The translations under genes were made by a program, and so were the position numbers. A stretch of 64,000 nt of DNA from Sinotaia quadrata (taxonomy: Eukaryota > Mollusca > Gastropoda > Architaenioglossa > Viviparidae), in the NCBI GenBank assembly GCA_028829895.1, contig CM054181.1, positions 14,478,001-14,542,000 of the forward strand, written 5' to 3'. This document shows, piece by piece, positions 9,239 through 49,388 of this stretch; the first letter of the stretch is position 1, and the number at the start of each line of letters is the position of its first letter. The notes beneath the pieces were generated by a model, which saw only the letters and a list, made by a program, of their open reading frames with translations, was not told where the DNA came from and did not search any database.

Positions 9239-9587
9239 GCCGAATATGCTTGCCGCCTGTGCATGGCACGTATTCAAGATATATAAGTACATTATTATTC
9301 TAATTCTCTGTTCCCGGCAATAGCGAAACACATCTGACATAAAACTCTAGCCAAATTGATTGGCAGTTATTAAATTATTTTTTTAAAACTAGATAAAAAA
9401 ATCGCGATTTCTTGCCCTCCCCCCAAAAAAATAAATAAATAAATAAATGAATAAAAATAAACATTTTTAAAAATATAATCTTACGATAACCTACTTGTCA
9501 TTTTCTCAGCTCGCAAATGACATTTTTCCACTGACAAATTGCGACCTTACGAGTGGAATTTTCGAGAGATGAATATGAAGTTCACTT

Positions 9588-43495: not shown

Positions 43496-45839
43496 TATAC
43501 TCTCGTTTCTCCAGGTGGAATACTTCCTTCCAGTGCATGAGCACGCTCCATTAACTATCCCTCTCTTGTTTACACTTTAACACTCATCTGTTCTAGTCAA
43601 GTTCACAAATTATTTACACACCAGTTCGCGTCGCTCTATTCAGGTGTTTATGACATGACGCACTAAGACAGCGGTGACGTGAAAGTTTACTGCGCGTTCT
43701 TGGCGCTGTTAATGACATGACACTTCAGCTGGATGAGTGTGTGTGGTGTGCATGTGTGTACGAGCATGTGTGCGACAGGAGCCATGAGGCTTTTTCATAA
43801 CTGATTTTATTTCAGCAAGTGAAACGATATGATAATGTATGAAAGATTTGTGAGTTTTTGTGATATTTAACCTAGAAATTTCATATTTGTCTCTTTCTAG
43901 TGCAAGAATAAGTCAGTCATTTTTTTGTTTGTTTTTAGGATTTTCTGGATTCATTGTACGTAATAAATAGCATTTGTTGTATGCTTGAGCTGAAATGGGT
44001 GGTGCTCTTAGTACATAGGGTTGTCTTGCCAAAGTTAGAAATTAAAGAAAATCCGTGTGGATGGTGATAAATGCATCTGTTTTGCTTTGTTTTGTTATTT
44101 TGTCTTGCTCTATAAACTTATGAGGATGCTAAATGTATAGTGGTCATTTTGGAAAATTCATTCAGATCGAATTGTCAAGTATTGAAATGGCGAATGTTGA
44201 ATCAGGGCCGTTAACCGAGTGTATTGCGTAGCAAAGCTCAAACATTTTTTCTAAGAACTATGTAGAGATTCTTTTCTTTTTTTCTCGTGAATATAGCTCT
44301 TTTTTCTTCCTGCTGCTGAGATAAAGAGTTCTGTCTGTTCTGTTTTAGTAAGAACTAAACAGTTTCTTGTTGTTTTTTTTTTTTATATACCTGTGACGTG
44401 TCTTTTTTGAATTGAAGTTGGTTCAGATTGTTTTGTGCTTATAAGAACAACGCGGTGTTTCTCTTTTTTTTCTTTCCCTAAAAAAAAAATAAAATTCTTG
44501 TACGTCGAATTGAAAATATTATCTGTCTTGTGAGGGCTAATGCTAAGTTGGTGTGAAAAATAGAGGAATTTGATGTTGGTTCAAAGTACTGAGTCCTTAT
44601 GTTGAACAAATCCCAAGTTCATACACCGAAGTTGGTTAGCGTGACCTCAGGAGAGGGGGGGGGGGAATGAAGAGAGGATAATCAGTGCTGCCCAATTCAC
44701 GGCATGCGACGATGCCGGCCGATCACCCAATGCAAGCTCACAGGGAGAGAACTCCACTAAAGAACGACAAACTGAGTACCATTAGCAATCTCTCTACTCT
44801 CTTTTAAATTATTGGATTGATTATTTATATAATGGTGACGAATAAAGAAATGATTTGAATGAAAAAGCCTCGTATGTAGCTAACTTTTGTTTAAGATTAG
44901 AAAAACGCGAATGTTGTGCGTACAATAATATTTGCTTTTGTTATTATTGTATGAAATACATATTTTTCATTGCAGATATACGTTGAATTAAATGTTAATT
45001 ATTTTCTTTCTACGCCATGCATTAATGTTTCGTTAATGTTTTTTATATATATATATGGGGTGGGGTGGGGGCTACAACTATGATGATATTCGTGGGGCTT
45101 CGACTCTAACAGAAGAATATCCAGAAAGCATAGTTTGGCTTATCACTAATTGGCTAATCATATCCCCAGGACAGAGTAATACATTGTCTCATTACAATAT
45201 TATATACTCACACGCGAATGGTCAAGCTTGTAATACGTTCTCCAGGTAAATCGGGTAACAGACTCGGGAGATGGGTTGGGTGGGGGGAGTGTGCACGCGT
45301 TTAAAGTCATATCGTTTACAACAATGACAAGGATATTGTTTATAAAATTTTTTCTACAAGTCAAATTTTCAACAACAAAAAACCCTACCTGCGACAATTC
45401 GCATAAAATCGGGGATGGGGTAGGGATTCACAAAGTTATAGGAAGTCGTCAATTCTTAAGTACCTTTGCAAAAAGTATGGAGAATTGTTTCAGTATTAGA
45501 AATTACAAACTTATTTTCTTTTTCCATTTTTTCCCCTCCTTGGTTTGAAAACTAGCACTATGCAACAGGAACAGACCACAGTGGTTTACGGTGCTTTCCC
45601 CATGACTTTAAAACCTTTGCAAGCAGAATGCGACGTTCAGCGAGCAATGAGGCGTAACTGATAGTGATGAAATGCGACATCGACGGACTCAGTCATGCGT
45701 AGATGATAGTGACGAATTGCGACATTCACAGATGCAATCAAGCATAGCCGGAAGTGACGGAAGATGTAGTCATGCGCGGTCACTCGTCTTACATTTTTGT
45801 CTCCCCTAGGGTGCATGCACGCAACAGACTAATAGGATA
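43496..45839. other. spacer, no gene seen
   Basis: Contains a G-run at 44655-44666, a small GGCAT/ATGCC hairpin at 44701-44716, a (TA)n at 45043-45056 followed by GGGGTGGGGTGGGGG, and T-rich runs at 44280-44490. No coding signal. Confidence 0.45.
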
Positions 45840-45930
45840 GACGCAAGCGAGGGAAGCGGACCGGAAAAACTCCCCATACCACCATCACCCACCCACCCAC
45901 CCACACCGCCACTCACACTCCAGCCAATAA

Positions 45931-46263
45931 AACGTCACCGATTGGGAGAGGACCCGCAGAGCAAAAAAGTACAGACTCCAGCCACCACCACAGAAAAAAA
46001 AAAATACAAACTACAACAGGAAACAAAAAGCAAAAGAAAACCCGAAAAATAGCCAACAGGTAGACAGACGCCAGAAAGAAGAGAAGAATACATCCAAAAA
46101 AGTGGACAGCCCAAAGGAGGAAGAAAACAGAACGAAGATCGAGGCCGACATGGAAAGAACACAATTGTCTGCCAGAGTCACCTCCAAGAGCTACAACAAC
46201 ACCAACACCTACAACAACCACAGCAGACAACCACGAAAGACAAACAGCAGAACAGAACTCTAA
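45931..46263 (+). pseudogene. unrecognised basic protein segment (fossil block, part 1)
   Basis: An open stretch of 110 codons runs from the base after a TAA (45928-45930) to a TAA at 46261-46263. It is very basic and charged near the start (TDWERTRRAKKYR, then a Lys run), followed by an acidic/basic mix (KEEENRTKIEADMERTQ) and an Asn/Thr-rich tail. No ATG initiates it, so it would be an internal exon or, more likely, a frameshifted remnant. It begins a 3.2-kb A/C-rich block unlike its AT-rich surroundings. No family is recognised. Confidence 0.3.
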
Positions 46264-46760
46264 AGCCTAAAGACAACGCCCACCATCACAAATAAGAAGA
46301 CAACAACAACAACAAAATCAGCAACAACGACAGGAACCATGACAACCACAACAGCAACATCAACAAAACAACCACCGCCAACAACAACAACAATGGCGAC
46401 GACACAAAGAGCAGCAGTCCATGCAATGGGGATATTTCAGCCACCCCATTGCCAACATGATCCAACTGCTGCTGGACCACCTCTACTGGCCATCAGCGCC
46501 GGCTTTTACACATCCCAACGGACACCGGGGACAACATCGACGCCAGCGCCAACAACAACAACGACAACACCGCCAGTGAGGAGGACAGGGGATTGAACAT
46601 CCTGGGCGCAAGTACACACTAGGTAAATACTTGGTGCGTTACAAGTCTGGGCTCTGTAAGACACCCCCTCCCACCCTCTCACTCGAACATCGAAAAAGAA
46701 TTCAACAACAACAGTGCCAACGAGAGCACTAGTCCACGGCTTACCGGACTAAGGCACGCC
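46137..46760 (+). repeat. ~0.6-kb direct repeat, copy 1
   Basis: Homologous to 48170-48718. Matching anchors are GATCGAGGC (46137), CACCCCATTGC (46442), CTGGGCTCTGTAAG (46647) and TTACCGGACTAA (46741). Offsets between copies drop from about 2033 to 1958 bp, so net indels have accumulated. CAA-rich stretches between the anchors align only loosely. Confidence 0.75.
46343..46579 (+). pseudogene. Q-rich protein C-terminus with HPIA..LLLDHLYWP motif, copy 1
   Basis: 78 codons between an upstream TGA (46340) and a TGA at 46577-46579. The peptide is Gln/Arg-rich, then reads WGYFSHPIANMIQLLLDHLY followed by WPSAPAF and a Gln/Arg-rich tail. The same frame is open in copy 2 and ends at an equivalent stop. 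An ATG-initiated frame in another register (46339-46596) is open here but has stops in copy 2, so I prefer the HPIA frame. The function is unknown. The hydrophobic LLLDHLYW helix could be a multimerisation or docking segment, but that is a guess. Confidence 0.35.
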
Positions 46761-47233
46761 TCTGACATGATAAATACAACGGACAAAAGAACTACAAACT
46801 CAACCACTCCAAGACTCAACAACAAACAGCACGGCATCCAGACAACACCATCACAAATACAGCAACAAGCATCACAACAAGGACAGACCAACATGCAAAA
46901 AACATTAAAAAAAATACCCACCCACCCACCCAAAAAACCCCACTACAGTCGAAACGGAACAATCACCAGCAAAAAAGAAATACAACAAGAGCAACACGGA
47001 ACGGCCGCCACCCTCTTTAGAATATAGTGAGAAGAGAAAGGCCCCACAGGAATCACCCAAAGACCGAGAACATACAATAGATGACACGTTTTCACGCAAT
47101 TCCTGTGGGGAAAAGAAGTTAACCTAAAGAAGGAGGACCCGCACCAAGGCTCAGAGCAACTCATCCTTCGGACTACCAGGACGGCAGCCATGAAGAAACA
47201 CAACACCAAAGCGTCAGCTAGTGCCACACCTAA

Positions 47234-47370
47234 CCCCTTATTAGAGCTAGTTGTGAAACCAGCCTTACTGCCCATCCCAAGCCCTTATTAAAGCTAGTTG
47301 TGAAACCAGCCTTACTGCCCATCCCAAGCCTTTATTAAAGCTAGTTGTGAAACCAGCCTTACTGCCCAAT
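47234..47370 (+). repeat. 47-bp tandem repeat, 3 copies
   Basis: AGCTAGTTGTGAAACCAGCC followed by TTACTGCCCATCCCAAGC begins at 47245, 47292 and 47339. It lies between the two 0.6-kb repeats. Because 47 is not a multiple of 3, this stretch cannot have kept a single coding frame. Confidence 0.96.
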
Positions 47371-47446
47371 CTGAAGCCCACTTCAGAGCAAGATAATCAG
47401 GTTGGTATATATCATATAGCCACCCCCAATCACTTATCAGGGCTAG

Positions 47447-47791
47447 AAAGAGGGAAAGAGGAAGTTTTCAAAAAACTACTTAGCGATTTATAGGGATAAG
47501 GGGTCAAATGAGGATCAAACATTAACTCCTTATGATTTCCAGATCAAACCAGAAAACTTCTGCCTCAACGAGACTTTCTCCAAACTAATGTGGATTCTCA
47601 TCCATGACGTGTCAGGAAAGGGAGAGAAGCCACATATTGAAAAACACCATGAAGCTCTGGACTGCGCCATCTACCTATGGCAGAATTTAAACGAACACCT
47701 CTCAATAGCTAGAATACCACCAACATCGACAGACAGTGAAACTCAAACGAACAGCCAGTGGAAGATACCACCAAAAACCAAAGACAACTAA
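47447..47791 (+). pseudogene. unrecognised protein-like open segment (fossil block, part 2)
   Basis: 114 sense codons, opening after a TAG (47444-47446) and ending at a TAA (47789-47791). The peptide has a convincing globular composition, for example YDFQIKPENFCLNETFSKL, MWILIHDVSGKGEKPHIEKH and LDCAIYLWQNLNEHL. The first ATG is at 47588. A TTTCCAG at about 47543 could serve as a splice acceptor, which would make the rest an exon. I recognise no domain. It lies between the two 0.6-kb repeats and may belong to the same decayed gene or retroelement. Confidence 0.35.
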
Positions 47792-48155
47792 ACACAGACT
47801 CATCAAACCAACAATGATGAAAATCAAAACGCAAACTGAACCCACCAGTACCCGTGGTAAGGAAATGAACACGCAAATAGTCTGGAAAAATACGAAAACC
47901 AAAGCCAACTCAACACAAAACTCCTACCCAGTTCAACAAAAGCAAACAGTCTTTCTCACAAACCCAGACTACCATCACGGAGGAAAATAAGAACCAAAAA
48001 TATCACCAACATAGAGGAAAAGGAAGTCCAGGCAATGCCCGCAACCAACAAAAAGGATAACAAGGACAAAAATCTTCAAAATCGCCAACACATTGACCAC
48101 AACCACTGCAATAAAAGAAAAATTCCTACAAACCGAAGACCGCACCAAGCAGTAA

Positions 48156-48419
48156 ATTAAACCAACTGAGATCGAGGCTGTCCTCAACGAATACACAAGA
48201 CCGCTCGAGGCTCTCCCTCTCTCACCATTACCAGAGACCCCACCAAGAGCAACAACAACAACGACAGCAGCAATTACAACAGACACCAAACAAAGCCCCA
48301 AATCAAAAGACGACGCCCACAACACATCCGACAACAACAGCGACAACGAGTCAGCAACAACAGCCACAACAACAACGCCAACAAAACCATCACCGACAAC
48401 AACAACGTCAGCAATTTAA
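48156..48419 (+). pseudogene. acidic/Thr-rich open segment (fossil block, part 3)
   Basis: 87 codons between a TAA (48153-48155) and a TAA (48417-48419). It starts KPTEIEAVLNEYTRPLEALP, then a Pro-rich linker and a long Thr/Ala/Asp/Asn-rich tail. Its start aligns with the KIEADMERT region of part 1 (shared GATCGAGGC). It ends one codon before the HPIA motif, which continues in the +1 frame, so a frameshift or splice would be needed to join them. Confidence 0.3.
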
Positions 48420-48718
48420 TCACCCCATTGCAGACATGATTCAACTGCTGCTTGACCACCTTTACTGGCCGCCAGCGCCTGCCTTCATGCATCTCAACGG
48501 ACACTGGGGACAGCCACAACGACAGCGTCAACAACGACATCACCATTGAGGAGGACAGGGAGTGGGGTTAAACATTCCGGGCGCACGTACACGGTCGGTA
48601 CAGACTTAACGTGCTACTGATCTGGGCCCTGTAAGCCACCCCCTACCAAACCCTCGGGAACAACAGCAACAACATCTACCACAGCTTTAGCGCACGGATT
48701 ACCGGACTAAAGTCCGCC
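48170..48718 (+). repeat. ~0.6-kb direct repeat, copy 2
   Basis: Partner of 46137-46760. Between CACCCCATTGC and the GGACA before the Gln-rich tail the two copies differ by substitutions only. In the first 22 HPIA-frame codons I count ten differences, eight of them at third positions and synonymous. Confidence 0.75.
48421..48549 (+). pseudogene. HPIA..LLLDHLYWP C-terminus, copy 2
   Basis: Reads HPIADMIQLLLDHLYWPPAP then AF, a Gln/Arg/His-rich tail and a TGA at 48547-48549, at the position equivalent to copy 1. The frame is open upstream to 48115 as a Gln-rich peptide. It differs from copy 1 in the motif core by only N/D and S/P. No function is assigned. Confidence 0.4.
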
Positions 48719-48751
48719 TTTGCCGGCCAGACACGTTTTTGCAACGGATGA

Positions 48752-49085
48752 GCGAACAACAGACTCCAACAGCAACACCACCGCCAGCGCTCCCCGAATA
48801 CTCGTGAGTGGAGCATGTCCCACTGGAGCATTACAGATCAGAGAACGTCTTATGATGAAATGATCCACGAAAGCTCCAGTGGCGACGTAAAATTGTTATC
48901 GTAACCACCACCACATAGACGACCAGAAACAGTTCACTGCGAACCCAACGAGAGAAAGAGCACCAGAAATACTTGCTAGGTTTAACCCCCGAAAGCTGCA
49001 GATGTCGAGGGATCAGGGGAAAAACACACCTAGCACACAAGTTCTTAGAGCAATCGATAACCTCTCGCCCCCGTCAGTCTGTTAA
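48752..49085 (+). pseudogene. two overlapping protein-like segments (fossil block, part 4)
   Basis: 48752-48904 is open for 50 codons to TAA and includes TREWSMSHWSITDQRTSYDE and IHESSSGDVK. 48891-49085 is open in another frame for 64 codons to TAA and includes ILARFNPRKLQMSRDQGKN and LRAIDNLSPPSV. Each has mixed, protein-like composition and neither has a useful start codon. Their overlap in different frames suggests a frameshift in a once continuous coding sequence. No family is recognised. Confidence 0.3.
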
Positions 49086-49271
49086 TTTTTTTTTAAATTA
49101 GAAACATAAGCTAAGGAGAAGCAAATCAATCAAAAAGACGAATACTTTTTAACTGTGCAAGAAGTTGATGACCAGAATGGACTTTTTTTTTTTTTTAAAG
49201 AAGAAGGAAAAGAGTATCAGTAAAAAAAGATAAGTTTAAAAATAAAAACAACTTTCCAAGCCAAAAAGACG

Positions 49272-49388
49272 CTAAAAAATAACACTGTAAGAACTCCTAA
49301 ATGAACTGTTGTAGATTTTGGTATTCTGACTAAAAAATAACACTGTAAGAACTTCTAAATGAACTGTTGTAGATTTTGGTATTCTGAC
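49272..49388 (+). repeat. 58-bp tandem duplication
   Basis: CTAAAAAATAACACTGTAAG recurs at 49272 and 49330, and the copies differ by one C/T. Confidence 0.95.

Follow-up and report, generated by a model that had tools for sequence, protein, structure and literature searches.

The A/C-rich block at positions 45931–49085 of a 64,000-nucleotide stretch of the Sinotaia quadrata genome (contig CM054181.1, positions 14,478,001–14,542,000; hereafter the window) consists of two adjacent, related, decayed retroposon copies, M1 and M2, and is not a single unit. Both are probably fossil copies of non-autonomous retroposons without long terminal repeats (non-LTR), which encoded an orphan ORF1/Gag-like protein and borrowed the enzyme of a long interspersed nuclear element (LINE). 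A preliminary description made from the letters alone had proposed one 3.2-kb block, either a decayed retroelement open reading frame (ORF) or an intron-rich gene. The single block and the intron-rich gene give way to two insertions from related element families, and the retroelement ORF is borne out by dispersed relatives, by 11–13-bp duplications around several of them and by peptide homology beyond composition. The A/C richness also holds, as a feature of the + strand: base composition is A.428, C.290, G.173 and T.108 in M1 and A.366, C.290, G.177 and T.167 in M2, compared with A.326, C.195, G.182 and T.298 in the window outside 45–50 kb.

M1 (45959–47132, + strand) is truncated on its 5′ side, and its genome copies match up to 47135. 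An exact 11-bp target-site duplication, GAGGACCCGCA, flanks it at 45948–45958 and 47133–47143, and no other repeat of at least 8 bp was found in comparing the flanks searched. Of the first open segment previously described (45931–46263), the initial 28 bases are flank upstream of M1. The ORF survives as an open fragment at 45959–46263, which by eye has RAKKYRLQPPPQ and KEEENRTxIEA in common with the ORF of one relative, L020, and as a C-terminal part carrying HPIANMIQLLLDHLYWPSAPAF at 46343–46579, closed by TGA at 46577–46579. After this stop, the 3′ untranslated region (UTR; 46580–47132) holds a box, GGGGATTGAACATCC...CTGGGCTCTGTAAG, that recurs in M2 and, by eye, in L026, and a stem-loop at 47041–47122. 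L026, by eye, has the 3′ UTR box GGCGCA...CTGGGCTCTGTAAA as well.

M2 (47144–48914, + strand) belongs to a related family; 12 fetched genomic copies align to it, and its 5′ end is uncertain by about 20 bases. The N-terminus of its ORF (47190–47446) begins at an ATG at 47190 and is interrupted by a 47-bp sequence in about three copies (47235–47368); its MKKHNTKASASA is similar by eye to MGKKRTQKSASA in the ORF of another relative, L030. A further locus, L029, has six matches to this N-terminal part, about 102 bp apart. The conserved N-terminal region follows at 47447–47791, and the C-terminal part, carrying HPIADMIQLLLDHLYWPPAPAF, is open at 48115–48549 and closed by TGA at 48547–48549. The middles of the two elements are 82% identical (M1 46442–46560, M2 48421–48539), and their frames close at these matching TGA codons. 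The 3′ UTR (48550–48904) contains a stem-loop at 48817–48896 and is followed by a (CCA)n tail at 48905–48914; ACCACCACCA stands at seven of the ten tail ends printed from other copies and is varied in L021:5684, L023 and L024. M2 in the window is without sequence usually present between 48762 and 48763 in other copies, which is about 89–215 bp long in seven of the 12 M2 copies; L023 and the second L019 copy have a longer stretch there. We considered an intron at this site and rejected it, as the extra sequence of the printed copies shows no clear GT-AG boundary by eye.

Searching the 984-Mb genome (26 contigs) with window positions 45800–49100 returned at least 77 matches in 40 scored candidates, the window itself being one, from 6881 first-look candidates; because only these 40 were scored, the copy number is a lower bound. 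The matches form two sets, M1 (ending near 47135) and M2 (about 47150–48914), and the relatives are dispersed across chromosome-size contigs. Of the 39 scored places besides the window, 30 were fetched, 18 of them M1-type and 12 M2-type loci. Coordinates given for L013–L016, L020, L021, L023, L024, L026, L027 and L036 refer to the strand that reads in the direction of the element, except that stem-loop matches are in locus coordinates and element parts in window coordinates.

The copies carry insertion hallmarks of non-LTR elements. Perfect end duplications of 11–13 bp flank six of 17 M1-type copies tested (the window and 16 loci, L032 and L038 being left out): 11 bp in the window, L016 and L020, 12 bp in L030, and 13 bp in L027 and L033. 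The L027 duplication is less clean, its flanks carrying several further 10–15-bp repeats, and L016 has an additional 12-bp repeat away from the element ends. Seven M2-type copies were tested (the window, L009, L011, L014, the second L019 copy, L021 and L023), of which one, L009, has a clear duplication of 13 bp; L011 and L014 have weaker ones of 8 and 7 bp, and L019 only tail repeats. The 3′ end with its tail is constant among copies, 5′ truncation is variable, and the sequence past the tails differs between the copies printed. L020, L030 and L033 reach about 650 bp further 5′ than M1 of the window. Window M1, L016 and L027, with 5′ ends defined by the duplications, begin far within the full-length sequence. 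All tails described consist of trinucleotide repeats, which are ACC in M2, AAG in most M1 copies, ACA in L020, and TAC in L014 and L034. Ahead of the tail, a GTTAWCGTAA box is exact among L009–L028 and the window only in window M2, L009, L014 and L021, and is varied in the remaining copies, window M1 included. A second GTTATCGTAA at window position 9481 was dismissed as chance level (two found; at least two in 6 of 100 shuffles).

Mean Kimura two-parameter distance is 0.183 among M1 copies (36 pairs, nine sequences) and 0.207 among M2 copies (78 pairs, 13 sequences). The right duplication of M1 abuts the 5′ end of M2, and CACCAAGGCTCA at that junction is common to L023 and the window, which suggests that M1 probably inserted after M2, landing at the 5′ edge of the older element.

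The 3′ ends of M1 and M2 can be folded into the same predicted structure, with an outer stem, a middle stem, an internal loop of GAGAA opposite AAA, and an apical stem YAUC/GAUR; the fold of 47013–47132 in M1 has an energy of −26.4 kcal/mol. When 18 tails were aligned freely, 91.5% of pair cells were standard and covariation was 0.238, compared with 0.138 in shuffled alignments. Four pairs were altered on both sides, mostly between M1 and M2, so few independent events are represented. Neither the count of double-change pairs (reached by 353 of 500 shuffles) nor the number of further pair types (reached by 500 of 500) rose above shuffles in this free alignment. A covariance model, R1, built from the 18 tails, recovered 32 tails in 27 sources at a threshold of E 0.001, 14 of them outside model building, with a match in 23 of the 30 fetched loci. 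The stem-loops of M1 (76.9 bits, E 2.6e-17) and M2 (89 bits, E 1.7e-20) are both training members. In the model-fitted alignment of 32 tails, 10 of 17 pairs are changed on both sides, and covariation is 0.288 against 0.146 (standard deviation 0.010) in shuffles, in an alignment that was fitted to the structure. Together these alignments show that the M1 and M2 families share a predicted 3′ stem-loop with compensatory changes. Three new R1 matches, at L023:1728–1806 (−), L026:4940–5013 (−) and L028:5262–5341 (+), appear by eye to represent diverged further families. Scans of the window and 15 loci gave no Rfam 15 family at its gathering score for this stem-loop. The ATGATGA...GAAA in the M2 tail had prompted the idea of a hammerhead ribozyme, which was discarded: at the gathering score Rfam gave no hammerhead match in the same sequences, and only three weak matches (E 1 to 3.6) appeared.

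The coding case rests on homology tests. The peptide of 47447–47791 matches the L030 ORF over 91 residues (BLASTP E 3e-9), where DNA similarity is slight (best blastn match 58 bp, E 0.008). Its Smith–Waterman score is 107; among 2000 residue shuffles no score exceeds 58, and among 1000 dinucleotide shuffles, each scored by the best of three frames, none exceeds 62. The remaining five frames of the same DNA score 21–43. Peptides of L020 and L015 are also similar (E 3e-6). Between the M1 and M2 families, fixed differences across 46442–46560 fall 1/2/11 at codon positions 1/2/3 (40/40/39 sites; permutation P 1e-4); in the 22-codon core they fall 1/0/7 (P 3.5e-4), and 3′ of the core 3/4/10 (P 0.049). 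Searches of 5.8 billion proteins found P0001 as the sole relative, a 91-amino acid (aa) protein encoded on a 1063-bp contig in a public assembly that may even be of the same species. P0001 was retrieved with M2 48115–48549 as the query (E 5.8e-9; 23% of the query aligned, at 58% identity), and M1 46343–46579 aligns with it at 47% identity. Codon positions and peptide similarity show that past selection acted on parts of the putative protein. A fragment of a third M-type family lies at L009:358–952, and its EQQYPSWDF is by eye closer to P0001 (EQQYPEWEF) than M1 or M2 are.

Consistent with the preliminary description, which recognised no domain, none of 17 peptides matches a Pfam family at the curated cut-off; the lowest E is 0.00067, to FBF1 (18.8 bits against a cut-off of 45). 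Structure prediction was poor, with a mean predicted local distance difference test score of 39.0 from five sequences and 46.5 from seven. LC8-binding TQT motifs were considered and dropped, since ACA/CAG-rich DNA yields TQT easily.

From these pieces, the intact element would have been about 1.7–2.0 kb, with a short 5′ UTR, a single ORF and a 3′ UTR of about 550 bp. The ORF is estimated very roughly at 370–430 aa, from coordinates with indels ignored, and would run from a conserved N-terminal region through a Q/T-rich linker to a C-terminal MIQLLLDHLYWPPAP motif; the 3′ UTR closes with the structured stem-loop, followed by a GTTAWCGTAA-like box and then a tail of trinucleotides. The four full-length elements (L020, L030, L033 and L009) measure 1687–1790 bp, and their longest forward frames are 132–221 aa. 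We suggest that the element RNA was translated into its own ORF1/Gag-like protein, and that the reverse transcriptase (RT) of an autonomous LINE may have recognised the 3′ stem-loop in trans. Target-primed reverse transcription would then begin in the trinucleotide tail and leave 11–13-bp duplications and 5′ truncation. The ends, duplications, truncation, tails and compensatory changes are observed in the copies; we infer that RT came in trans, that it recognised the RNA by its stem-loop, and what the protein did. If so, the element supplies the protein and a host LINE supplies the RT.

Several results weigh against this reading. Within families, codon phase is weak: M2 47447–47791 gives P 0.027 one-sided and 0.16 for any phase, the best of 25 overlapping M1 windows gives P 0.0135, and the other six segments give any-phase P of at least 0.10; M2 47520–47879 gives an any-phase P of 0.036. 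Such weakness would be expected from mostly neutral decay after insertion. No unbroken element ORF was seen among the 22 of 30 loci with listed frames (in part only frames of at least 150 aa), in which the longest element frame is 247 aa. No R1 match was found in seven of the 30 fetched loci (L012, L013, L015, L018, L032, L035 and L038), 11 of the 17 M1-type copies tested are without an end duplication of the kind described, and none of at least 8 bp was found at the ends of window M2. No autonomous partner was seen, with no systematic RT search made, and the full-length check covers four elements only. Moreover, scored matches are those most like an RT-less query, so RT-bearing relatives could be missed.

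The alternative with the best standing holds that the M elements arose by internal deletion from an autonomous LINE with the same ORF1 plus an ORF2, of the HAL1 or SIDE type. We put its probability only a little short of even; it differs from the reading of borrowed enzymes and an orphan protein in origin only, with the same working, and the two overlap. The order of ORF followed by 3′ UTR suits a LINE minus its ORF2. HAL1 is described as a non-autonomous L1 derivative in passages of PMC5753468, and SIDEs as internally deleted LINEs in passages of PMC6740152. Against deletion, the ORF stop and the 3′ UTR box are common to M1 and M2, so the RT-less layout may be older than the split between them. 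No RT-bearing relative was recognised by eye among frames of at least 150 aa in 20 loci, which was not a systematic RT search; no RT occurs among the 17 Pfam-scanned peptides, and the endonuclease and RT of an autonomous LINE were not found in the four full-length elements. We tentatively propose, with the odds somewhat against us, a long-lived RT-less retroposon lineage in which several families kept an orphan RNA-binding-type protein under selection and one 3′ RNA tag recruited a LINE enzyme.

Among known systems, HAL1 and HeT-A appear nearest in working, and relatedness to either is not implied. HAL1, the half-L1 element of mammals, codes for L1 ORF1p and has a poly(A) end. The M elements are like it in being RT-less non-LTR elements that code only for an ORF1-type protein, and unlike it in having no Pfam domain match and in ending in trinucleotide repeats; no L1 ORF1p RRM or C-terminal domain match was found in the Pfam scan of 17 peptides, which leaves room for a very divergent ORF1. 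The Gag of HeT-A carries CCHC knuckles, and no zinc-knuckle match appeared in the same scan. HeT-A lacks Pol and takes its polymerase from elsewhere, a point partly inferred from passages of PMC5537684. In those passages HeT-A, at Drosophila telomeres, encodes Gag and has one strand very poor in G, and HAL1 in the passages of PMC5753468 encodes only ORF1p, is without RT and is non-autonomous. The M elements would resemble HeT-A in having their own Gag-like protein, a putatively borrowed polymerase, and a G-poor strand. HeT-A forms telomeric head-to-tail arrays, whereas M copies are dispersed, some with target-site duplications, and all 40 scored places are internal to large contigs, with about 0.28 Mb as the smallest distance to a contig end.

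SIDEs such as Persaeus, with its partner the CR1 element Zenon, are non-autonomous non-LTR elements moved by a LINE, according to parts of PMC6740152; unlike them, the M elements kept an ORF under apparent selection between two families, and a partner was not found. Stringent-type pairs of LINEs and short interspersed nuclear elements (SINEs) have a common structured 3′ end ahead of the tail, as described in PMC5135761. The M elements likewise have a predicted 3′ stem-loop and then a tail, and differ in a stem-loop (GAGAA opposite AAA) that reached no Rfam 15 gathering score in the sequences searched. SINEs carry a small-RNA head with a pol III promoter; the tRNA search of the window was negative, and Rfam gave no match at its gathering score there or in 15 loci, searches that would pass over weak A/B boxes. 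SINEs, to our knowledge, encode no protein. Passages of a study of gastropod non-LTR ORF1s (PMC11203168) describe mollusc ORF1s as very divergent and do not contain the words nonautonomous or non-autonomous; no element of the M kind turned up in our literature searches. We know of few RT-less retroposons that conserve a protein (HAL1, HeT-A). A clan whose families all conserve an orphan ORF and share a covarying 3′ RNA element would be a natural test of the RNA requirements of a LINE enzyme and of why a passenger keeps a protein. For annotation, "unknown A/C-rich coding" blocks in the Sinotaia quadrata genome would be explained as transposon remains.

It is very improbable that the block is a non-coding SINE-like or low-complexity A/C-rich repeat with frames held open by composition alone. 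Its CAA content is strong and, as noted, within-family codon phase is weak. Against 500 dinucleotide shuffles of 45831–49085, the five longest ORFs sum to 612 aa (shuffle mean 562, P 0.22) and the longest is 144 aa (P 0.49); the only raised measure is the number of ORFs of at least 79 aa (11 against 6.7 expected, P 0.02). The early caution that CAA repeats keep frames open was thus justified, and frame openness alone is weak evidence. Four of the five open segments first described (45931–46263, 46343–46579, 47447–47791 and 48156–48549) are each open in one forward frame, the last in its second frame, that of the ORF at 48115–48549; the fifth, 48752–49085, has stops in all three. The segments had been described as protein-like, and homologous peptides do exist in this genome and in P0001. 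A lack of such homologues in any related genome, with codon statistics no better than shuffled CAA-rich DNA, had been named as grounds for giving up that description; frame openness is indeed near that of shuffled DNA, and peptide similarity is not. A protein alignment far above its shuffled controls in one frame only, the fixed differences at third codon positions and the P0001 match contradict the composition explanation for 47447–47791 and the MIQLLL segment; for the remaining segments the coding case depends on where they lie within the same element.

We consider it very improbable that the block holds gag fragments of an LTR retrotransposon or another element class. A Gag-like layout would suit that origin, as would the A-rich strand bias that retroelements commonly have. 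Self-comparison of the four full-length copies revealed no terminal repeats, the duplications are 11–13 bp and not the 4–6 bp usual for LTR retrotransposons, and the copies combine 5′ truncation with trinucleotide tails. A decayed or intron-rich host gene, which several open segments in shifting frames might recall, is scarcely credible given dispersed copies, some with insertion hallmarks.

Other features were seen within and around the fetched copies. An insert of about 1 kb within an M2 copy (L019:6285–7277) resembles by eye a LINE ORF2 C-terminus, with a GAT repeat at its end. L023 4916–5808 and L026 upstream of its stem-loop (both in script orientation) contain stretches similar by eye (ATGATGAYTGGATAATGCACTT...); one mobile element, unrelated to these retroposons, may have inserted within or beside them at both loci. 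A 355-aa open frame flanks an M1 copy in L025 (7515–8579, − strand). In the window, a 58-bp tandem duplication of 98% identity lies just 3′ of the block (49272–49387), and Tandem Repeats Finder reported 129 rows over positions 1–64000, many with units of 20–70 bp in several copies.

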